A program made the translations under genes and the position numbers. From Streptacidiphilus sp. ASG 303 (GTDB lineage Bacteria; Actinomycetota; Actinomycetes; Streptomycetales; Streptomycetaceae), in NCBI RefSeq assembly GCF_020991365.1, contig NZ_JAJLRA010000027.1:1-64000 (forward strand): a DNA stretch of 64,000 nucleotides. The letters run 5' to 3'. The notes under the pieces are model-generated. The model had not been told where the DNA came from and did not search any database. It was given only the letters and a program-made list of their open reading frames with translations. Positions 608 to 23,553 of this stretch are shown here, in pieces (within the stretch, counting starts at the first letter, position 1; each line of letters starts with the position of its first letter).

Positions 608-1978
608 TCAGGGCGTCGGCCGCTCCCCGGGTTCGGCGGGGCGGTCGATGCCGAGGTGGTCGCGGAGGGTGGAGCCGGTGTAGTCGTGGCGGAAGACCCC
701 GCGCTCCTGGAGCAGGGGGACGACGGTGTCGGCGAACCCGTCCAGGCCGCCGGGGGTGAGGTGCGGGACGAGGATGAAGCCGTCGGCGGCGTCCGCCTGC
801 ACCAGCGCGTCGATCGACGCGGCCACCGTCGCCGGGGAGCCGACGAAGGTCTGGCGGTTGCCCGCCTCGATGACCAGGTCCCGGATGGACCAGTTCTTCT
901 GCGCGGCGAGCTCCCGCCACTCGCGGGCGGTGGCCAGCCGGTCGCGGTACATCCGCACCTGGGCGCGGCCCTGGGCGACGGTGTGCTCGCCCGGGTCGGG
1001 GTCGATGTCGGGGAGGGGGCCGTCGGGGTCGTAGGCGGACAGGTCGCGGTTCCAGACGAACTCCAGGTGGCGCAGGGCGGTGGCGCCGCTGACCTGCCGG
1101 CGGCGCACCTCCCGGGCGGCCTCCTGGGCCTCGGCGTCGGTGTCGCCGAGGACGAAGGTGGCGGCGGGCAGGATGAGCAGCTGGTCGGGGCGGCGTCCGT
1201 ACCGGGCGAGGCGGCCCTTGACGTCGGCGTAGAACGCCCGCCCCTCCTCGAGGGTGCCGTAGCGGCTGAAGATGGCGTCCGCGCCGGCCGCGGCGAACTC
1301 CCGGCCCTCGTCGGAGTCGCCGGCCTGGAAGACGACCGGGCGGCCCTGGGGGCTGCGGGGGGTGTCGAACCGCCCGTGGATGTCGAACTGCTCGCCCCGG
1401 TGGACGAACGCCCCGGCGCGGGCGTCGCGCAGGAAGGTCCCGGACACCGGGTCGGCGGCGAGGTCGTCGTCGCGCCAGGAGTCGAAGAGCTCGTTGGCGG
1501 TGGCCAGGAACTCCCTGGCGCGGGAGTAGCGCTGCTCCTGCGGGAGGAAGCCGCCGCGGCGGAAGTTCTCGCCGGTGAAGGCGTCCCAGGAGGTGACGAC
1601 GTTCCAGGCGGAGCGCCCGGCAGAGAGGTGGTCGAGGGCGGCGAACTGGCGGGCGACCTCGTAGGGCTCGTTGAAGGTGGAGTTGATGGTGCCGGTCAGA
1701 CCGAGGCGGTCGGTGACGGCGGCGAGGGCGGCCAGCACGGTGAAGGTGTCCGGGCGGCCCACCACGTCGAGGTCGTAGATCCTCCCGTTCTGCTCGCGCA
1801 GCCGCAGTCCCTCCGCGAGGAAGAGGAAGTCGAACTTGGCGCGCTCCGCGGTGCGGGCGAAGTGGACGAAGGAGTCGAACGCGATGTGGCTGCCGGCCCT
1901 GGGGTCGCTCCACACGGTGGTGTTGTTCACGCCGGGGAAGTGGGCGGCGAGGTGGATCTGCTTCACGGGCCTGCTCAT
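608..1978 (-). CDS. FMNH2-dependent monooxygenase, NtaA/SnaA/DszA family
   Basis: This 456-residue protein belongs to the bacterial luciferase-like (LLM) superfamily, nitrilotriacetate-monooxygenase branch. These enzymes use reduced FMN from a separate reductase and O2 to oxidise small organic substrates, often cleaving C-S or C-N bonds. Family signatures are the N-terminal HFPGVNNTTVW block, the SAWNVVTSWD block near residue 145 and the PQGRPVVFQAGDSDEGREFA segment near 225. The ATG at 1978 is preceded by GGGAGAG. The gene lies 14 bases after the other LLM gene and closes the importer operon that starts at 6261. The substrate is unknown; the sulfur-type control of the operon suggests an organosulfur compound. 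Confidence 0.85.
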   Translation of the reverse strand: MSRPVKQIHLAAHFPGVNNTTVWSDPRAGSHIAFDSFVHFARTAERAKFDFLFLAEGLRLREQNGRIYDLDVVGRPDTFTVLAALAAVTDRLGLTGTINSTFNEPYEVARQFAALDHLSAGRSAWNVVTSWDAFTGENFRRGGFLPQEQRYSRAREFLATANELFDSWRDDDLAADPVSGTFLRDARAGAFVHRGEQFDIHGRFDTPRSPQGRPVVFQAGDSDEGREFAAAGADAIFSRYGTLEEGRAFYADVKGRLARYGRRPDQLLILPAATFVLGDTDAEAQEAAREVRRRQVSGATALRHLEFVWNRDLSAYDPDGPLPDIDPDPGEHTVAQGRAQVRMYRDRLATAREWRELAAQKNWSIRDLVIEAGNRQTFVGSPATVAASIDALVQADAADGFILVPHLTPGGLDGFADTVVPLLQERGVFRHDYTGSTLRDHLGIDRPAEPGERPTP

Positions 1979-1992
1979 GGTCGGGCTCTCCC

Positions 1993-3192
1993 TCAGGATC
2001 GGGCGGCCGCGGCCGCGTAGCGGTTGGCGGGACGGGGCAGGCCGAGCAGTCCGCGCAGGGTGCCGACCCCGTACGCCGTGCGGAAGGCGCCGCGCGACTG
2101 GAGCTCGGGCACCAGGCCGCGGGTGACGGCGGGCAGGTCGTGCCCGAGCACCGCGGGGTGCAGCCGGAAGCCGGTCAGTCCGGCGGCGCGCAGGTCCAGC
2201 AGCAGGTCGGCGAGTCCGGCCGGGGTGCCGGCGAAGACGGGGATGCCGTCGGCGACGGGTGGCCCGTCCAGGTCGTCGAGGCGGGCGCGCCGGTCCGCGG
2301 CCGCGGCGGCGGTCTCGTCCAGGAGGACGGCGAGGTCGCCGAGGACGTGCAGGGGCCCGTCGGCGTCCCGCAGGCCGCGCAGGCGTGCGACGGCGTCGCG
2401 GACCCGGTCGGCGTCGTCGGCGGGGACGTGGACCAGGTCGGCGGAGCGGGCGGCCGTCCGGAGGGACGCGGGCCCGTCGAGCGGCACGGCGACAGGGGGC
2501 AGGCCCTGCGGCGGACGCGGGGTGATCGAGGGGCCGCGCACCCGGAAGAAGCGGCCCTCGAAGTCGATGTGGTGCAGCTTGTCGCGGTCGACGAAGCGGC
2601 CGGTGGCGGCGTCGCGGATCTCCGCGTCGTCCTCCCAGCTGTCCCAGAGGCGGCGCAGCACCTCGACGTAGTCGGCGGCCTCCTCCCACAGCTCCTCGGC
2701 CACGGCGGCGGGGCTGTCCGTGGGGGCGGAGGTGCCGGGGGCGGGGAAGGTGCGGCGTCCGAAGTGCGCGGCCTCGTCCGGCCTCGCGGTGACGCGGATG
2801 CGCACGCCGGCGCGGCCGTTGCTCACGTGGTCGAGGGTCGCGACCGCCTTGGAGAGGTGGAACGGCTCGGTGTGGGTCGCGGTGACGGTGGGCACCAGGC
2901 CGATGTGCCGGGTCAGCGGGGCGACGCGGGCGGCGGTCAGCACCGCGTCGAGGCGTCCGTGGACCCGGTCGGTGCGCCCGTCCGGTCCGTCGGGGCGGGA
3001 GGACTGCGGGGCCAGGGCGTCCTCGAAGGTCACGAAGTCGAGCAGTCCGTGCTCGGCCTCGGCCACGAGGTCGGCCCAGTAGCGTGCGGTGAACAGCTCC
3101 CGGGGCCGGGAGGCGGGCTCGCGCCAGGCGGCCGGGTGCCATCCGGCCCCGTCCAGCGCGGCGGCCAGGTGGAGGGGGGAGGGAGCGGACAC
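1993..3192 (-). CDS. LLM-class flavin-dependent monooxygenase
   Basis: A 399-residue LLM-superfamily protein, related to but distinct from its downstream neighbour. The conserved core includes LLDFVTFEDALAPQ, RIRVTARPDEAAHFGRR and ITPRPPQGLPPVAVPLDG. It probably uses FMNH2 and O2, or F420 in some relatives; the sequence alone does not decide. It follows the binding-protein gene after 177 bases containing a strong hairpin, and precedes the second monooxygenase by 14 bases. Two different monooxygenases next to one importer suggest either two-step oxidation of an imported compound or two related substrates. Confidence 0.8.
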   Translation of the reverse strand: MSAPSPLHLAAALDGAGWHPAAWREPASRPRELFTARYWADLVAEAEHGLLDFVTFEDALAPQSSRPDGPDGRTDRVHGRLDAVLTAARVAPLTRHIGLVPTVTATHTEPFHLSKAVATLDHVSNGRAGVRIRVTARPDEAAHFGRRTFPAPGTSAPTDSPAAVAEELWEEAADYVEVLRRLWDSWEDDAEIRDAATGRFVDRDKLHHIDFEGRFFRVRGPSITPRPPQGLPPVAVPLDGPASLRTAARSADLVHVPADDADRVRDAVARLRGLRDADGPLHVLGDLAVLLDETAAAAADRRARLDDLDGPPVADGIPVFAGTPAGLADLLLDLRAAGLTGFRLHPAVLGHDLPAVTRGLVPELQSRGAFRTAYGVGTLRGLLGLPRPANRYAAAAARS

Positions 3193-3369: not shown

Positions 3370-4413
3370 TCAGGAGTTGTCGAGCGGTAGCCCGGGCGGG
3401 TTGACCAGGGACCGGTCGACGCCCTCGTTGGAGAGGTTCCAGGCGGACAGCCACTGCGCGTACTGGCCGTTCTTGATGAGGTGGTCGATCGCGTCCGCGA
3501 TCGGCCTGGCGAGCCCGCTGTCCTTCTTCGTGGTGGCGGCGATGAGGCCCTGGAGGGTCGCGCCGGCCCCGGAGAAGGTGCCGGCGTTCCGCGTGGGGTG
3601 GGCGGTGCCGGCGTCCTGGCGGATGTGGTAGGCGATGTCGGGGTTGGGACCGAAGTAGGCGTCGATCTTCCCGCCGTCCAGCGCGAGCCAGGTGCTGTTG
3701 TTGTCGGGGAAGTACTTGACGGTCAGCTGCCTGCCCTCGGCCCTGAGCTTCTCCTGCCAGGTGAGGAGGATCTTCTCCTGGTTGGTGCCGCGGCCGACGG
3801 CGACGGTCCGGCCGGCGAGGGCGCGGTAGTCGCCGCGGAAGTCCCAGGTGCTGCTGCGGAGGACCTCGAACCCCAGGTTGTCCTTGCGGTAGGAGGCGAA
3901 GTCGTACTTCAGCTTGCGCTGCTCGGTGTCGGTGACGTTGGCGAAGGCGACGTCGGTCCGGCCGCTGTCGAGGCCGACGAACATGTTCTCCCAGGTGGCG
4001 TTGGACAGCACCGGCTTGAGGCCGAGGACCGCGGCGACCAGTCGCCCGAGGTCGGGCTCGGAGCCGGTGAGGGTCCGCTGGTCGGTGCCGACGAACGCCA
4101 GCGGCGGGAAGCCCGCCGGGAGCGCGCCGACGCCGATGGCGAGGCGGCCGCTGTCGCGCACCTTCTTCGGCAGCTCCGCGCGGATCGACGGCACGGCGGC
4201 GACCGTGAGGACGGTCTCCTTGCCGGCGCCGTTGGAGAGGGCGCCGACCGTCACGGTGCCGTCGGACGCGGCGCCGTCGGACGCGGCGGTCACGGAGTCG
4301 CCGCCGCCGCAGGCGGCGAGGCCCGTCGCGAGGGAGGCCGCCGCGGTGGCGGTGGCGAGGCCGCGGAGGATCCGGGCGCGGAGCGGGCGGGTGCGGAGAC
4401 CGGGTCTGGGCAT
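3370..4413 (-). CDS. ABC transporter substrate-binding lipoprotein (family 3, polar amino acid type)
   Basis: A 347-residue extracytoplasmic binding protein. The N-terminus has a basic stretch, a hydrophobic segment and a lipobox (GLAAC) near residue 34, so it should be lipid-anchored outside the membrane. The body carries bacterial family-3 binding-protein features, such as GVGALPAGFPPLAFVGTDQ, EPDLGRLVAAVLG and the DVAFANVTDTEQR block. This fold binds amino acids and related small polar molecules, including cystine and organosulfur compounds. The permease and ATPase genes of the same system lie just upstream. The ligand cannot be read from the sequence. Confidence 0.85.
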   Translation of the reverse strand: MPRPGLRTRPLRARILRGLATATAAASLATGLAACGGGDSVTAASDGAASDGTVTVGALSNGAGKETVLTVAAVPSIRAELPKKVRDSGRLAIGVGALPAGFPPLAFVGTDQRTLTGSEPDLGRLVAAVLGLKPVLSNATWENMFVGLDSGRTDVAFANVTDTEQRKLKYDFASYRKDNLGFEVLRSSTWDFRGDYRALAGRTVAVGRGTNQEKILLTWQEKLRAEGRQLTVKYFPDNNSTWLALDGGKIDAYFGPNPDIAYHIRQDAGTAHPTRNAGTFSGAGATLQGLIAATTKKDSGLARPIADAIDHLIKNGQYAQWLSAWNLSNEGVDRSLVNPPGLPLDNS

Positions 4414-4492: not shown

Positions 4493-5284
4493 TCAGAGGA
4501 CCTTGCTCAGGAACGCGCGGGTGCGCGGGTGCCTCGGGTGGTCGAGGACCTCGGCGGGCGGGCCCTCCTCGAGGATCCGGCCCTCGTCGAGGAAGACGAC
4601 GCGGTCGGCGACCTCGCGGGCGAAGCCGATCTCGTGGGTGACGATGACGAGGGTGGTGCCGTCCGCGGCCAGGTCCCTGATGACCGACAGCACCTCGCCG
4701 ACCAGTTCGGGGTCGAGCGCCGAGGTGGGCTCGTCGAAGAGGATGAGGCCGGGCCGGAGGGCGAGCGCCCGGGCGATGGCGACGCGCTGCTGCTGGCCGC
4801 CGGAGAGCCGGCGCGGGTACGCGTCGGCGTGGTCGGCGAGGCCGACCCGGGCGAGCAGGCCGCGGGCGAGCTCCCGCGCGCCGTCCCGGTCCAGCTGCCC
4901 GGTGGCGGCGGGGGCCGCGGCGACGTTCTCGAGCGCGGTCAGGTGGGGGAAGAGGTTGAAGTTCTGGAAGACGAAGCCGATGCGGCGGCGCTGCTCGAGG
5001 ATGGCCCGCTCGCTCAGCTCCTTGAAGTGCCCGCGGTGCGGGCGCACACCGATCGGCTCGCCGTTGAGGCTGACGTACCCGGACTCCGGCCGCTCCAGGT
5101 GGTTGACGACCCGGAGCAGGGTGGACTTTCCCGAGCCGGAGGGGCCGAGGACGACGGTCACCTCCCCGGGCCGCACCGTGAGGCTCACACCGTCCAGCAC
5201 CCGCCGGGAGCCGTAGGATTTGTGCACGTCGTGCACCTCTACCGCCGCCGGCCGCACGGGGGCTGCCGCTGCCGTGCCGGTCAT
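4493..5284 (-). CDS. polar amino acid-type ABC transporter ATP-binding protein
   Basis: A 263-residue ATPase. It has Walker A GPSGSGKST near residue 43, a Q-loop in FVFQNFNLFPH, the signature LSGGQQQR, Walker B LILFDEPTSALD and the switch histidine in VIVTHE. The FQxFNLFPHLT block marks the amino-acid-uptake (GlnQ/HisP) subfamily. The ATG at 5282-5284 overlaps the permease stop (ATGA), so translation is probably coupled. It energises uptake with the neighbouring permease and binding lipoprotein. Confidence 0.9.
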   Translation of the reverse strand: MTGTAAAAPVRPAAVEVHDVHKSYGSRRVLDGVSLTVRPGEVTVVLGPSGSGKSTLLRVVNHLERPESGYVSLNGEPIGVRPHRGHFKELSERAILEQRRRIGFVFQNFNLFPHLTALENVAAAPAATGQLDRDGARELARGLLARVGLADHADAYPRRLSGGQQQRVAIARALALRPGLILFDEPTSALDPELVGEVLSVIRDLAADGTTLVIVTHEIGFAREVADRVVFLDEGRILEEGPPAEVLDHPRHPRTRAFLSKVL

Positions 5285-6261
5285 GCCGCCGCCTCCTTCC
5301 GGAGCCGGGCACCCGCGGCGGCGAACCCGGCCCGCAGCCGCTGCAGCGGCGTCGGCGGCAGGGAGCGCACGGCGCCGCGCGCGTAGTGGCGCTCCACGTA
5401 GTACTGGACGACGGAGACGGCGCTGGTCAGGATCACGTACCAGGCGGTGGCGACCAGCAGCAGGGGCACGATGTCGCCGGAGTAGGTGCTGCCGAGGCTC
5501 TGCACCGTGCCGAAGACGTCGAGCAGCGAGACGTAGAAGACGAGCGAGGTGCTCTTCACGAGGCCGATCAGCTGGTTGACGTAGGACGGGACGACGGCGC
5601 GCAGGGCCTGCGGGAGGACGATGCGGGTGAAGCGGTAGGAGGCCGGCAGGCCGAGCGCGGCGGCGGCCTCGTGCTGGCCCTGGTCGACGGAGAGGACGCC
5701 CGCGCGGACCACCTCCGCCGCGTACGCGGCCTCGTTGAGGCTGAGGCCGACGACGGCGACCGCCATGTCGCCGGCCAGCCTCGACTCGTCGAAGGTGGCG
5801 AAGGCGGGGCCGAACGGCACGCCCACGCTCAGCACGGGGTACAGCGCGCTGAAGTTGTAGAGGAACAGCAGCACCACGATCAGCGGGACGGAGCGGAACA
5901 GCCAGATGTAGCTCCAGCTGACCGCCCGCAGCACCGGGCTCGCGGAGAGCCTGCCCAGGGCGAGCAGGACCCCGCCGAGCAGGCCCAGGACGGCGCTCCA
6001 GGCGGTGACCTCCAGGGTGACGCCCAGCCCCTGGAGGACGACCGGCCGGGCGAACCAGTACCCGAAGCGGTCCCACTGGTAGAAGGGGTTGGTGGCCAGG
6101 CCGTGTGCGGCCTGGGCGGCGACGACGAGGACGGCGGCGGTGGCCGCCCACCGCCGGGGGTGCCGCAGCGGGACGACGCGCCGCGCGGCGGGGGCGGGAG
6201 GGGGCGGCGGGGGCGGCGGCGCCGTGCCGGGGGGCACGACGGTGCCGAGGGATTCGCTCAT
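5281..6261 (-). CDS. polar amino acid-type ABC transporter permease
   Basis: A 326-residue membrane protein with a proline-rich cytoplasmic N-terminus and then hydrophobic segments typical of the HisM/GlnP family. The EAA loop (EAAAALGLPASYRFTRIVLPQ) contacts the ATPase. The ATG at 6261 was chosen because the family alignment starts just after it; an in-frame start at 6384 would add an unlikely 41-residue Pro/Arg tail. This is the first structural gene of the five-gene operon. Its 5' region carries a leader peptide (6484-6600) and a SAM-IV riboswitch (6630-6736). Confidence 0.85.
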   Translation of the reverse strand: MSESLGTVVPPGTAPPPPPPPPAPAARRVVPLRHPRRWAATAAVLVVAAQAAHGLATNPFYQWDRFGYWFARPVVLQGLGVTLEVTAWSAVLGLLGGVLLALGRLSASPVLRAVSWSYIWLFRSVPLIVVLLFLYNFSALYPVLSVGVPFGPAFATFDESRLAGDMAVAVVGLSLNEAAYAAEVVRAGVLSVDQGQHEAAAALGLPASYRFTRIVLPQALRAVVPSYVNQLIGLVKSTSLVFYVSLLDVFGTVQSLGSTYSGDIVPLLLVATAWYVILTSAVSVVQYYVERHYARGAVRSLPPTPLQRLRAGFAAAGARLRKEAAA

Positions 6262-6483
6262 GGGGGGACTCCGTGGGGACGGTCCGTCAGCATCGGGGGC
6301 CGCGCGCAGGGCGCGGGGCGGGGGCGCACCCGGGAGGGGGTGCACCGGTGGGGAGGAAGGGGGCGCCGCCGGGTGCGGGCGCACGGCGCGCCCGCCGGTA
6401 CGGCGGCCCGTACCGCAGGACGGGTGCCGGCCCTGGCCGGGCGCACCCGGCGGGCCGGGGGCCCGGCGGCGGCGCGGGAGGCG

Positions 6484-6600
6484 CTAGGAGACGGTGCTAC
6501 AGAGGGCGCTGCACACGCGCAGCAGGTCGACGCAGCGGTCCAGGTAGGCGTCGACGCGGCCGTGGCGCCGCCGGGCGGCCGTCCCCGGTCCTGCGTCCAT
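6484..6600 (-). CDS. cysteine/sulfur-type leader peptide (38 aa) of the importer-monooxygenase operon
   Basis: A 38-residue ORF ending in CVDLLRVCSALCSTVS. The core D-L-L-R-V-x-S-x-x-C is the signature of the short leader peptides that Streptomyces carries before sulfur and methionine genes. This copy is cysteine-rich, with four Cys in the last 16 residues. It lies between the SAM-IV riboswitch and the permease start, 222 bases upstream of the latter. By analogy with cysteine-responsive attenuators in actinobacteria, ribosome stalling at the Cys codons probably adjusts downstream expression. Confidence 0.75.
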   Translation of the reverse strand: MDAGPGTAARRRHGRVDAYLDRCVDLLRVCSALCSTVS

Positions 6601-6629
6601 CGCTGCCACCGTCACCGTTCTGCCGCAAG

Positions 6630-6736
6630 GGCGTCGCGCTTACCGAGCCGTCGGTCGGGTCATCACCTGGGGCACCCCGCCGCGGTGGAGGGTTGCCGGC
6701 CAGCGAGCCAGGGCTTGTCGCTGACGCTCATGACCG
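6630..6736 (-). ncRNA. SAM-IV riboswitch
   Basis: The minus strand reads GGTCATGAGCGTCAGC, then CTGGCCGGCAACCCTCC, CGCGGCGGGGTGCCCC and AGGTGATGACC. This matches, in order, the conserved actinobacterial SAM-IV aptamer: P1 GGTCAT pairs with ATGACC, the core is GGCAACC, and the GGTAAGCGCG tail corresponds to the 3' pseudoknot region. A promoter ends just upstream. The RNA should reduce expression of the leader and importer operon when S-adenosylmethionine is abundant. Confidence 0.9.
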
Positions 6737-6747
6737 TTGTGGGCCGT

Positions 6748-6777
6748 ACGTTAGGGAGCGGCTCTCCGGCGTGTCAA
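6748..6777 (-). promoter_or_regulatory. promoter of the SAM-IV riboswitch transcript
   Basis: TTGACA (6777-6772) and TAACGT (6753-6748) are 18 bases apart. The predicted start near 6741 is only a few bases before the riboswitch P1 helix. Confidence 0.7.
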
Positions 6778-7101: not shown

Positions 7102-7308
7102 TGTTCCCCCCTGTCGATCGGATGACCTGGGGGGTGGTGTCACCGGGCCCGAGAGGCGTCGTTGGAGACGCTGATGAGAGGTCTGACCACCGCCCGGCCA
7201 GGCGCAATGCCCGGCCGCACCCGGGCGGCAGGTCTGCATAACGTGGATGCGCGCATACGACGCCAACGCCCTGGCCAGCACCACACGAACCCGGTTCGGG
7301 AGGATGGG
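7102..7308 (+). ncRNA. candidate IS110 bridge-RNA region (left non-coding end)
   Basis: IS110-group elements carry, between the left end and the recombinase gene, a structured RNA that pairs with donor and target DNA. This element has a non-coding interval of the right size and place. The RNA itself was not folded, so the call is by position and family only. Limits are approximate. Confidence 0.4.
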
Positions 7309-8511
7309 TTGTACGACATCGACGACGTGGGCGTCTTCCTCGGCCTGGACGTCGGCAAGAGCGCCCACCACGGGCACGGGCTCACCCCGGCCGGCAAGAA
7401 GGTCTTCGACAAGCAGCTGCCCAACAGCGAGCCGAAGCTGCGGGCCGTCTTCGACAAGCTGGCCACGAAGTTCGGCACCGTGCTGGTGATCGTGGACCAG
7501 CCCGCCTCGATCGGCGCCCTCCCCCTGACGGTCGCCCGGGACGCCGGCTGCAAGGTCGCCTACCTGCCCGGCCTGTCCATGCGGCGGATCGCCGACCTCT
7601 ACCCGGGCGAGGCGAAGACCGACGCGAAGGACGCCGCGGTGATCGCGGACGCGGCTCGCACGATGCCGCACACCCTGCGCTCGCTGGAGGTGACCGACGA
7701 GATCACCGCCGAGCTGACCGTGCTGGTCGGCTTCGACCAGGACCTGGCGGCCGAGGCCACCCGCACCTCCAACCGGATCCGCGGCCTGCTCACCCAGTTC
7801 CACCCCAGCCTGGAGCGCGTCCTCGGGCCGCGCCTGGACCACCAGGCCGTGACCTGGCTGCTGGAGCGCTACGGCTCCCCCGCTGCACTGCGAAAGGCCG
7901 GTCGCCGCAGACTCATCGAAGCGATCAGGCCCAAGGCCCCGCGCATGGCCGCCCGGCTGATCGACGAGGTCTTCGACGCCCTCGACGAGCAGACCGTCGT
8001 GGTCCCGGGCACCGGCACCCTCGACGTCGTGATCCCGTCCCTGGCCCGTTCGCTCGCCGCCGTCCACGAACAGCGCCGGGCCCTGGAAGCACAGATCGGA
8101 CAGCTGCTCGAGGCCCACCCTCTTTCCGCGGTCCTGACCTCGATTCCGGGGGTCGCGGTCAGGACCGCCGCCACCTTGCTGGTCACCGTCGGCGACGGCA
8201 CCAGCTTCCCCACCGCCGCCCACCTCGCCTCCTACGCCGGCCTCGCCCCGACGACCAAGTCGTCGGGGACCTCGATCCACGGCGAACACGCACCCAGAGG
8301 CGGCAACCGGCAGCTCAAACGGGCCATGTTCCTGTCCGCGTTCGCCGCCTTGCACGACCCCGCCTCCCGCACCTACTACGACCGATGCCGGGCCCGCGGC
8401 AAGACCCACACCCAGGCCCTCCTCCGCCTGGCCCGCCACCGCATCAGCGTGCTGTTCGCGATGCTCCGCGACGGCACCTTCTACCAGCCCAGAACCCCAC
8501 GCCTCGCTTGA
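7309..8511 (+). CDS. IS110-family transposase/recombinase
   Basis: The N-terminal RuvC-like DEDD domain begins FLGLDVGKSAHH and contains the conserved YLPGLSMRRIADLYPGEAKT and DAKDAAVIADAARTMPHTLR blocks. The C-terminal transposase_20 domain has TSIPGVAVRTAATLL, ASYAGLAPTTKSSGTS and APRGGNRQLKRAMFLSAF, including the region of the catalytic serine. The TTG at 7309 preceded by GGGAGGA gives 400 residues, the usual family length; a longer in-frame start at 7162 would add an atypical tail. The gene looks intact. It runs antisense to metX. Confidence 0.9.
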   Translation: MYDIDDVGVFLGLDVGKSAHHGHGLTPAGKKVFDKQLPNSEPKLRAVFDKLATKFGTVLVIVDQPASIGALPLTVARDAGCKVAYLPGLSMRRIADLYPGEAKTDAKDAAVIADAARTMPHTLRSLEVTDEITAELTVLVGFDQDLAAEATRTSNRIRGLLTQFHPSLERVLGPRLDHQAVTWLLERYGSPAALRKAGRRRLIEAIRPKAPRMAARLIDEVFDALDEQTVVVPGTGTLDVVIPSLARSLAAVHEQRRALEAQIGQLLEAHPLSAVLTSIPGVAVRTAATLLVTVGDGTSFPTAAHLASYAGLAPTTKSSGTSIHGEHAPRGGNRQLKRAMFLSAFAALHDPASRTYYDRCRARGKTHTQALLRLARHRISVLFAMLRDGTFYQPRTPRLA

Positions 8512-11275: not shown

Positions 11276-11350
11276 TCAGCGGGCGGCGGGACAGCCCGTG
11301 CTGGTGACGCGGCCGTAGTCCACGTGGCGGCGGGTCACGAGGGGCGTCAT
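11276..11350 (-). CDS. leader peptide (24 aa) upstream of metY-metX
   Basis: The product is MTPLVTRRHVDYGRVTSTGC plus PAAR. The R-R-H-V-D, R-V and S/T-x-x-C spacing matches the other leader peptides of this region. It precedes a methionine-synthesis operon, which supports a role in sulfur-responsive attenuation. No clear promoter could be assigned next to it. Confidence 0.75.
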   Translation of the reverse strand: MTPLVTRRHVDYGRVTSTGCPAAR

Positions 11351-21990: not shown

Positions 21991-22044
21991 GGCCGGGACG
22001 GTCAAGATTGTCGGCGCCCGCCGTCCCGGGACCTCCCGGACCAG

Positions 22045-22148
22045 CGGGTCGTCAGCCCCGGCTCGCCGACAGGCAACCCCTCCACCGCGACGGGGTGCTC
22101 CGGGTGAGGACCAGGCCCCGCGCAACCGCCGGGGCAAGTGCGGTACCG
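22045..22148 (+). ncRNA. SAM riboswitch, SAM-IV / SAM-I-IV-variant type
   Basis: The order of elements matches the SAM-I/SAM-IV core: GGTC at 22047, GTCG...CGAC helix P2 around CAGCCCCGGCTC, AGGCAACCCCTCC, the P3 arm ending GGGGTGCTCCGGGTGA, and GACC at 22109 closing P1. A CCCCG...CGGGG hairpin and CAAGTGCGG follow, as in the SAM-IV 3' pseudoknot. It differs from the first riboswitch in helix P2, hence the variant label. It precedes the leader and the GST-like gene. Confidence 0.82.
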
Positions 22149-22196
22149 GACCGCGGCCCTGCCGCCGGTCCGGTCACGGACGGGCGGGGGACGGCG

Positions 22197-22352
22197 ATGG
22201 CCGGCACGGAGGCGCACGGCCCCGGTGGACACCCCGCTCCCGCACGTGCCTCGTCCGGGGACCTGTGCACGCCCCCACGCCGCCCGGCGCTGACCGTACG
22301 CCGCCACATCGACCTGCTGCGCGTGTGCAGCGCGGGCTGTCGCACCCGCTGA
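22197..22352 (+). CDS. leader peptide (51 aa) between SAM riboswitch and GST-like gene
   Basis: It ends ALTVRRHIDLLRVCSAGC plus RTR, an almost ideal R-R-H-I-D-L-L-R-V-C-S-A-x-C leader motif. The ATG at 22197 has a GGGGGA RBS; the N-terminal 30 residues are not conserved in shorter leaders. It follows the riboswitch by about 50 bases and precedes the GST-like gene by 226 bases. Confidence 0.8.
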   Translation: MAGTEAHGPGGHPAPARASSGDLCTPPRRPALTVRRHIDLLRVCSAGCRTR

Positions 22353-22578: not shown

Positions 22579-23553
22579 ATGTCCGAGACCGCCCCGAGGA
22601 CCACCGCCGGCCACGCTCTCCGCCCGCGCCCGGACCGGCTGCCGCAGCTGTCCGGAGCGGAGGGGCCCGTCCAGCGCTTCCGCGGCCGCATCGGCAGCGA
22701 CGCACGCAGCGGCTACTACCCCGCGCTGCACCGCTACCACCTGTACCTGTCGCTCGCGTGTCCCCTGTCCCTGCGCACCGCCGTGACCCTCTCCCTCGCC
22801 GGGCTGGAGGGCCAGGTGTCCGTCACCGTGCTGGACCCGGTGGCCGAGGACCTCGACGCGCCCGCCGCACCGGGCGGCCGGGCGCGGGACGGCGCCGCGC
22901 AGGGACTGCGGGACCTGCGACGGGCCTACGAGGCCAGCCGCCACCGGTACGACGGGCCCGTGACCGTCCCCGCGCTGTGCGACCGGTGGAGCGGACGGCT
23001 GGTCAGCAACCACGCGCCCGACATCATGCGGGACCTCGCCACCCGCCTCCCCGGCGGACCGGCGGCGGACGCGACCGGCCTCTACCCCCCGCACGCCGAC
23101 GCGGACCTCGAGGAGCTCGCGCTCCTCCTCGACGAGGGGATCGGCGAGGCCGCCCAGCGCGCGGGCCGCGCCCCGGCCGGCAGGCGCGACGGCGAAGCCC
23201 TGCGGACGATCCTGTCCTCCCTCGCGGCGCTGGAGCACCGCCTGACGGACCGGCACTTCGTCGCCGGACCGCACCTGACCGCCGCCGACGTGCACCTGTG
23301 GGCGACGCTCGTCCAACTGGACCTGGTGCACCGGCTCCACCTCGACGAGGACGCCGTCCGGCGCATCGCCGACCACCCGCGCCTGTGGGCCCACGCGCGG
23401 CGGCTGCACCTGCTGCCCGCCTTCCACCGCACCCTGCGCCCGGACCACATCGCCCGCCGGCACCGGCGCAGCTGCCGCGGCCCGGAGTCCTCCGGCGCAC
23501 GCCTGCCCCTCGCCGACTGGACGATCCCACCGCAGGCCGACCCCGGCGCGTGA
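22579..23553 (+). CDS. Xi-class GST-like protein (glutathionyl-hydroquinone reductase family)
   Basis: A 324-residue thioredoxin-fold protein of the YqjG/ECM4 (Xi) GST class. It has the RFRGRIGSD...YHLYLSLACP block with the catalytic Cys near residue 60, and a helical C-terminal domain with RHFVAGPHLTAADVHLWATL. Canonical members de-glutathionylate hydroquinones. Actinomycetes mainly use mycothiol, so the thiol partner is uncertain. In canonical proteins the Cys is followed by P-W-A-H-R; here P-L-S-L-R, so the site is divergent. SAM-riboswitch and leader control place it in sulfur metabolism. Confidence 0.8.
   Translation: MSETAPRTTAGHALRPRPDRLPQLSGAEGPVQRFRGRIGSDARSGYYPALHRYHLYLSLACPLSLRTAVTLSLAGLEGQVSVTVLDPVAEDLDAPAAPGGRARDGAAQGLRDLRRAYEASRHRYDGPVTVPALCDRWSGRLVSNHAPDIMRDLATRLPGGPAADATGLYPPHADADLEELALLLDEGIGEAAQRAGRAPAGRRDGEALRTILSSLAALEHRLTDRHFVAGPHLTAADVHLWATLVQLDLVHRLHLDEDAVRRIADHPRLWAHARRLHLLPAFHRTLRPDHIARRHRRSCRGPESSGARLPLADWTIPPQADPGA

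Follow-up and report, generated by a model that had tools for sequence, protein, structure and literature searches.

The DNA analysed here, referred to as the window, is a stretch of 64 kb. On its minus strand, a promoter is followed by a SAM-IV riboswitch aptamer, a short leader ORF, a C-rich spacer and five genes. The features of this operon are as follows.

6748-6777, minus strand: sigma-70-like promoter read in the sequence (TTGACA at 6777-6772, 18 nt, TAACGT at 6753-6748)
6631-6735, minus strand: SAM-IV riboswitch aptamer (Rfam RF00634 by cmscan, 98.3 bits, E 9e-17, model positions 1-116)
6606-6616, minus strand: GGTGACGGTGG, presumed ribosome-binding region of the leader, read in the sequence
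6484-6600, minus strand: leader ORF, MDAGPGTAARRRHGRVDAYLDRCVDLLRVCSALCSTVS and stop (38 aa, ending in RCVDLLRVCSALCSTVS and stop), whose ATG and C-terminal motif are conserved in orthologs
6499-6501, minus strand: TGT, the conserved Cys codon of DLLRVxSALC
6262-6483, minus strand: C-rich spacer between leader and permease (about 220 bases), a candidate Rho-entry region by base composition
6273-6269, minus strand: permease Shine-Dalgarno sequence (SD) CGGAG, inside the spacer
5281-6261, minus strand: ABC permease of the polar amino acid/cystine type (PF00528; NCBIfam GltK/cystine permease models below cut-off)
4493-5230, minus strand: ABC ATPase nearest TcyN, start approximate (PF00005; best NCBIfam model TcyN, 311 of 406 bits)
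3370-4413, minus strand: solute-binding lipoprotein of family 3, nearest a cystine binder (PF00497)
1993-3192, minus strand: NtaA/DmoA-like FMN monooxygenase (PF00296; TIGR03860, 233 of 279.7 bits)
608-1963, minus strand: NtaA/DmoA family FMN monooxygenase, start approximate (PF00296; TIGR03860, 411 bits, above cut-off)

A sequence-only reading of this locus had proposed a promoter, a SAM-IV aptamer, a leader and five genes on one transcript, and its coordinates and gene number were borne out by the RF00634 score of 98.3 bits, the ORF and the Pfam assignments. Transcription is expected to start near 6741. The -35 element is nearly invariant across 52 aligned sequences; a generic promoter scan missed this promoter because its -10 element matches only three of the six positions of the E. 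coli consensus. Alignment of the loci with both elements shows strong conservation of the promoter, the aptamer and the leader core, and no further promoter-like block that is kept in the interval from aptamer to leader. The separate promoter at that place, which had been named as the finding that would uncouple the two, was not found in silico. Next to the promoter, on its upstream side, a transposase-like ORF (7174-8511, plus strand; by eye of IS110 type) runs in the opposite direction. Both monooxygenases are luciferase-like, and the gene set suggests, from its family assignments, that cystine-like or other organosulfur compounds are taken up and cleaved oxidatively.

The window holds the combination of SAM-IV and leader twice, the second time at 22038-22352 on the plus strand.

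22038-22146, plus strand: second SAM-IV riboswitch (RF00634, 59.7 bits)
22197-22352, plus strand: second leader ORF, ending in RRHIDLLRVCSAGCRTR and stop (51 aa), with the conserved Cys codon TGT at 22338-22340
22579-23553, plus strand: gene for a glutathione-transferase-like protein (PF13410)

Over the full model, both aptamers score above the RF00634 gathering score of 38 bits (98.3 and 59.7 bits). The form of 105-106 nt is kept in the orthologs of the first aptamer, and the RNA at 6735-6631 would be expected to bind SAM. The minus strand also carries three DLxRV-type Cys leaders that have no SAM-IV, at 11350-11276, 16015-15941 and 17141-17058 (MTPLVTRRHVDYGRVTSTGCPAAR, MGHPVALVRRPHVDLLRVAAALCS and MSQSEDLAARLHVDLCRQAGALCPCAR), and all have TGT at the conserved Cys. 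The latter two look leaderless: in one, TATAGT ends 8 nt before the ATG, and in the other the start codon GTG follows its TTGACG at a distance of about 30 nt. Downstream of the leader at 11350 is a gene for a PLP enzyme of Cys/Met metabolism.

The leader start kept in orthologs is the ATG at 6600, and the core motif of these leaders is (V/I)DLxRVxSxxC. The residues D, L, R, V, S, A, L and C are nearly constant among 72 orthologous leaders, while the codons for D (GAT 45 and GAC 27), R (four CGN codons and AGG), V (GTC 40 and GTG 32) and A differ, so selection acts on the leader peptide. The conserved Cys is the exception at the codon level: it is encoded by TGT throughout, both in the orthologous leaders (72/72) and in those of the set of 131 SAM-IV sites described below (58/58); the other Cys codons in that set are TGC 25 times and TGT 19 times (Fisher p 3e-12 against the conserved site). 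Eight leaders read in the window's own genome also have TGT there. UGC is the common Cys codon, yet the conserved leader Cys is UGU. Plain background was rejected as the source of UGU, with a loose upper bound of 22% TGT that is probably an overestimate, the ORFs having been picked by composition. Selection is thus seen on both the leader peptide and the UGU codon, and one wobble-read codon fixed at one position would fit a pausing site. The question of how such leaders pause ribosomes has been open since the first description of terminator-less cysteine leaders in Actinobacteria (PMC1262725), and the near-absolute choice of UGU is a clean clue to it.

The leader had been called Cys-rich. It does contain Cys, at positions 23, 30 and 34 of 38; a poly-Cys tract is absent, and one Cys is conserved inside the motif. 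Half of the leaders in the 131-site set have a single Cys after the motif and most have one or two, and three homologous leaders of one lineage, before GST-like genes, have no Cys and keep HIDLLRVSSA. These three (loci L237, L243 and L244) end in AY and stop and lie behind SAM-IV aptamers with an enlarged P2 arm. Canestrari reportedly described, in 2020, cysteine-responsive polycysteine attenuators in mycobacteria (work cited in PMC13236596); those have a leaderless start and a run of consecutive Cys near the stop, whereas here a 5' UTR of about 140 nt carries the aptamer and an SD-like region, and the Cys residues are scattered.

The window leader (6600-6484) matched none of the NCBIfam leader models at E≤1, and several SAM-IV-linked leaders of other sites pass NF042934 (30.5-33.5 bits, cut-off 27 bits). 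For this reason, the window leader is, as judged from its sequence, a divergent relative and, by this model, not a member of NF042934. The second leader (22197) falls just below the cut-offs (NF042936, 3e-9; NF042934, 25.5 bits). With the known Cys-rich leaders of Actinobacteria (NF042934, NF042936, NF042933; PMC1262725) it is a short ORF before sulfur genes, a (V/I)DLxRV..C core, a Cys near the C-terminus and the lack of an intrinsic terminator that are shared; the leader described here differs in being SD-led behind a riboswitch instead of leaderless, and in having no Cys run.

To place the operon among its relatives, GTDB genomes were scanned with the permease. The 80 loci found belong to Streptomyces, Streptacidiphilus, Actinacidiphila and Streptantibioticus, and they were classified by motif search and Rfam. 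Both elements are present in 55 of them, the leader only in 18, neither in 7 and SAM-IV only in none. The leader thus occurs in 73 of the 80 orthologs, and SAM-IV never occurs without it (Fisher p 1.5e-4, counted over the 80 loci without correction for relatedness). The proposed tandem of SAM-IV and Cys leader behind one promoter is therefore real and conserved in 55 of 80 orthologs. On the permease tree, 13 changes of riboswitch state are needed, of which at least four are forced by well-supported branches. In orthologous loci that lack the aptamer, a promoter of the same kind stands immediately in front of the leader, and one of these loci (L074) keeps an apparent 3' tail of the aptamer, which makes riboswitch losses likely. 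Dual sensing of SAM and cysteine is plausible from these sequences, and it would be common but dispensable, given that 18 orthologs have the leader alone. Natural riboswitch losses with the leader kept would be ready-made controls. Both states occur within one species, Streptomyces griseorubiginosus, of which strain DSM 40469 (L064) carries the leader only and strain MPMI3 (L089) SAM-IV together with the leader.

The generality of the arrangement was assessed at 131 SAM-IV sites. The window's genome and its genus contributed 3 sites each, and all others came from 34 family members selected for having at least three copies. A leader was counted when an ORF with a DLxRV-type motif lay within about 420 nt and ended within 50 codons. 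Such a leader was found behind 81 of the 131 sites (79 by motif search, and those of L006 and L153 in a separate inspection). As controls, the reverse strand gave 1/131 and sequence further downstream 0/131. Since the sampling favoured multi-copy genomes, 81/131 should not be read as the frequency over all SAM-IV sites. The riboswitch is always 5' of the leader at paired sites. Behind the pairs lie luciferase-like monooxygenases, ABC permeases and binding proteins of several families, a DAO-type oxidoreductase, GST-like proteins and, in one group, AAA_16 proteins. In this last group (L222, L225, L226, L230 and L232), SAM-IV and RLDIDLxRRASxLCR leaders precede AAA_16 ATP-binding proteins that are perhaps LuxR-type regulators; a regulator under the control of SAM-IV and a leader would be unexpected.

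SAM-IV is present in 245 of 249 family genomes. The best-scoring copy, probably the housekeeping copy, has a six-codon ORF (VSKRMR and stop, or close variants) behind its aptamer at 31 of 33 top-scoring family and genus loci, and the version MSKRMR and stop is found behind 22 of the 131 sites. An SD and a hairpin precede this ORF and its variants, as seen at L002 (1501-1618, minus strand) and L007-L036. To our knowledge, this six-codon ORF at the housekeeping SAM-IV of Streptomycetaceae has not been described. Elsewhere in the class, very short Cys-containing ORFs were read by eye at 8 of 25 SAM-IV loci from other families (MARSPMRCCCQ, MTCRMRR and MCIRRMCCR, each followed by a stop, are examples), mostly before O-acetylhomoserine-sulfhydrylase-like genes. 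They lie about 100-250 nt behind the aptamer (L256, L258, L260, L262, L263, L267, L268 and L274), and their Cys codons are again mostly TGT. Since such ORFs occur both at the family's housekeeping copies and in other families, a short ORF behind SAM-IV is a class-wide habit. At some sites, notably in genus g14, a gene lies directly behind SAM-IV. Divergent pairs of SAM-IV aptamers, a few hundred bases apart and each facing its own operon, were also seen (L041, 3224-3370 on the minus strand and 3500-3608 on the plus strand; also G020:C2, G030:C1, G123:C1 and G194:C4).

The spacing of the two elements bears on how they may be coupled. At 65 sites, the distance from the AAGCGC tail of the aptamer to the SD-led leader start is 17-55 nt (median about 40). 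The SD is often GGAGGTGA, which many SAM-IV-linked leaders other than the window's have at this place, and the gene is roughly 150-500 nt further on. At SAM-IV sites without a leader, the gene's own SD takes the position of the leader SD. This arrangement suggests that the riboswitch controls the tiny frame and the tiny frame controls the genes. Given that the leader starts about 40 nt behind the aptamer and the gene is far away, the riboswitch most likely gates translation of the leader and not of the distant gene; the lack of an intrinsic terminator, together with the spacing, indicates translational control of the leader. By position and conservation, the ORF lies between aptamer and gene with its SD within reach of the aptamer, as in a riboswitch-controlled upstream ORF (uORF). 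The two sensors had been described as stacked; the tandem holds, and mere stacking gives way to an order that is probably serial, with the leader starting 17-55 nt behind the aptamer. Consensus folding of the stretch from aptamer to leader did not find a covarying anti-SD helix. On visual inspection, a small hairpin recurs in the interval that separates the aptamer from the SD. In some orthologs GCGTCA, in the 5' strand of the aptamer, was also seen by eye to match TGACGC at the leader SD, but this pairing is broken in others and was dropped.

We therefore propose that the 5' UTR of this organosulfur/cystine uptake operon holds a serial sensor with two stages. In the first stage, the SAM-bound SAM-IV aptamer would block ribosome entry at the leader ORF. 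In the second, low SAM would allow the leader to be translated and, when charged tRNA-Cys is short, the ribosome would pause at the UGU of DLxRVxSxxC. The paused ribosome would keep the C-rich RNA open, so that Rho is excluded and/or the permease SD is uncovered, and full expression of the operon would require low SAM together with low cysteine. We infer that SAM binds, that the switch has OFF polarity, that the ribosome stalls when cysteine is short and that the output step works in this way, and hold the whole chain, from SAM-IV gating of the leader through the tRNA-Cys pause at UGU to operon output, with about even confidence.

As to the output step, no terminator-like site was found behind the leader, and the consensus fold from leader to gene, computed on 52 sequences, is almost empty, with no conserved structure. 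The antiterminator and intrinsic terminator of a classical transcription attenuator are thus not present behind the leader, and classical attenuator hairpins were rejected on the consensus folding. The C/G ratio in orthologs is 1.68 from leader to gene and 0.87 from aptamer start to leader start. Rho, which has been suggested for other cysteine leaders in Actinobacteria (PMC1262725), is the leading candidate for the output step. In many orthologs, CTGCTCCG in the leader is complementary to CGGAGC, and it could conceivably mask this gene SD until a stalled ribosome covers CTGCTCCG; this anti-SD-like sequence is absent from the window leader and several orthologs, with no compensating change.

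The serial arrangement is supported by the sulfur-scavenging gene types behind the pairs and by the leader being kept while the riboswitch is repeatedly present or absent. Counted against it are the missing covarying anti-SD helix, the missing post-leader structure and the absence of CTGCTCCG in the window, the small number of Cys codons, unlike classical amino-acid attenuators, and the failure of the window leader to match any leader model.

Since half of the leaders have one Cys and three have none, the main rival to counting of tRNA-Cys is a nascent-chain arrest peptide, in which DLxRVxSxxC in the exit tunnel would sense cysteine or another sulfur metabolite instead of charged tRNA-Cys, with the riboswitch still acting as the gate. 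That D, L, R, V and S are conserved like Cys over very different operons, with free synonymous change, that the Cys-less leaders keep HIDLLRVSSA and that single-Cys leaders are so frequent all fit this reading. The fixed UGU, however, points to decoding at that codon; the same leader type is reportedly known in mycobacteria as a cysteine-responsive poly-Cys attenuator; and the very short SAM-IV-linked leaders of other families share only Cys codons. We regard arrest as unlikely, though it is a serious contender. In its fullest version, an AND gate in dozens of operons, the SAM riboswitch would gate an arrest-type leader (DLxRVxSxxC with an obligatory UGU) that reads sulfur status via the nascent chain, and to this we give marginally less credence still.

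Returning to the serial gate, its order of action would be lost if the two elements worked in parallel, SAM-IV setting the transcript level (e.g. by Rho) and the leader answering cysteine by itself. The modules are indeed separable, as the 18 orthologs with the leader alone and the riboswitch-free leaders of the window indicate, and no switch helix onto the leader SD was found. Against this, SAM-IV is never without the leader in the 80 orthologs, the leader start sits where SAM-IV controls genes directly elsewhere, and closing the leader SD must also affect a translation-dependent leader; parallel action therefore seems to us rather improbable. It is quite improbable, to a much greater degree, that the short ORF encodes a small protein with its own function that is merely expressed under SAM-IV control. 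Selection does act on the motif amino acids, and the M. tuberculosis Mbox controls a conserved small ORF (PMC12810186), but beyond the 10-residue motif the lengths and sequences of the leaders differ widely between sites, a fixed UGU codon would have no reason in a protein, and NCBIfam models the relatives as cis-regulatory leaders. Chance juxtaposition or a spurious leader ORF, conceivable in high-GC DNA full of open frames, was rejected and has next to no probability, given the 80 orthologs, the 131 sites with controls of 0-1/131 and a motif that is invariant in 72 orthologs with synonymous change.

Compared with known SAM-IV elements (RF00634), the window aptamer is alike in being full-length and above the gathering score, in an actinobacterial host and before sulfur genes; known examples are described before a gene, whereas here a leader ORF lies between aptamer and gene. 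The closest systems in working are two from M. tuberculosis. In the B12 riboswitch with uORFs (metE, ppe2), the expression platform acts on a short translated ORF, through which control is passed to the gene (PMC11260477); there the ligand is another, the uORF overlaps the gene, termination-reinitiation is used and no amino-acid sensing is proposed. The Mbox combines a translational riboswitch on a conserved uORF with Rho-dependent termination (PMC12810186), with another ligand and a uORF product that is not thought to be a sensor. The Sinorhizobium metA SAM-II riboswitch acts at a distance, with the SD separated from the start codon used (PMC9373788), and differs in riboswitch class and phylum, in its intrinsic terminator and in having no cysteine leader. 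A survey of S. lividans lists one SAM-IV and eight leader peptides separately (PMC8079986). Our search, which mostly did not extend to subscription literature, found no published account of SAM-IV and a Cys leader as one unit, the two occurring in the same papers only separately; such absence from the literature does not prove novelty.

Control by a riboswitch and control by a leader-peptide attenuator are usually seen as alternatives. Here the two are apparently placed in series, and the combination recurs before organosulfur uptake genes in a large antibiotic-producing family. If the serial gate is true, SAM-IV would in many places be a gate on a second sensor and not a gene switch.
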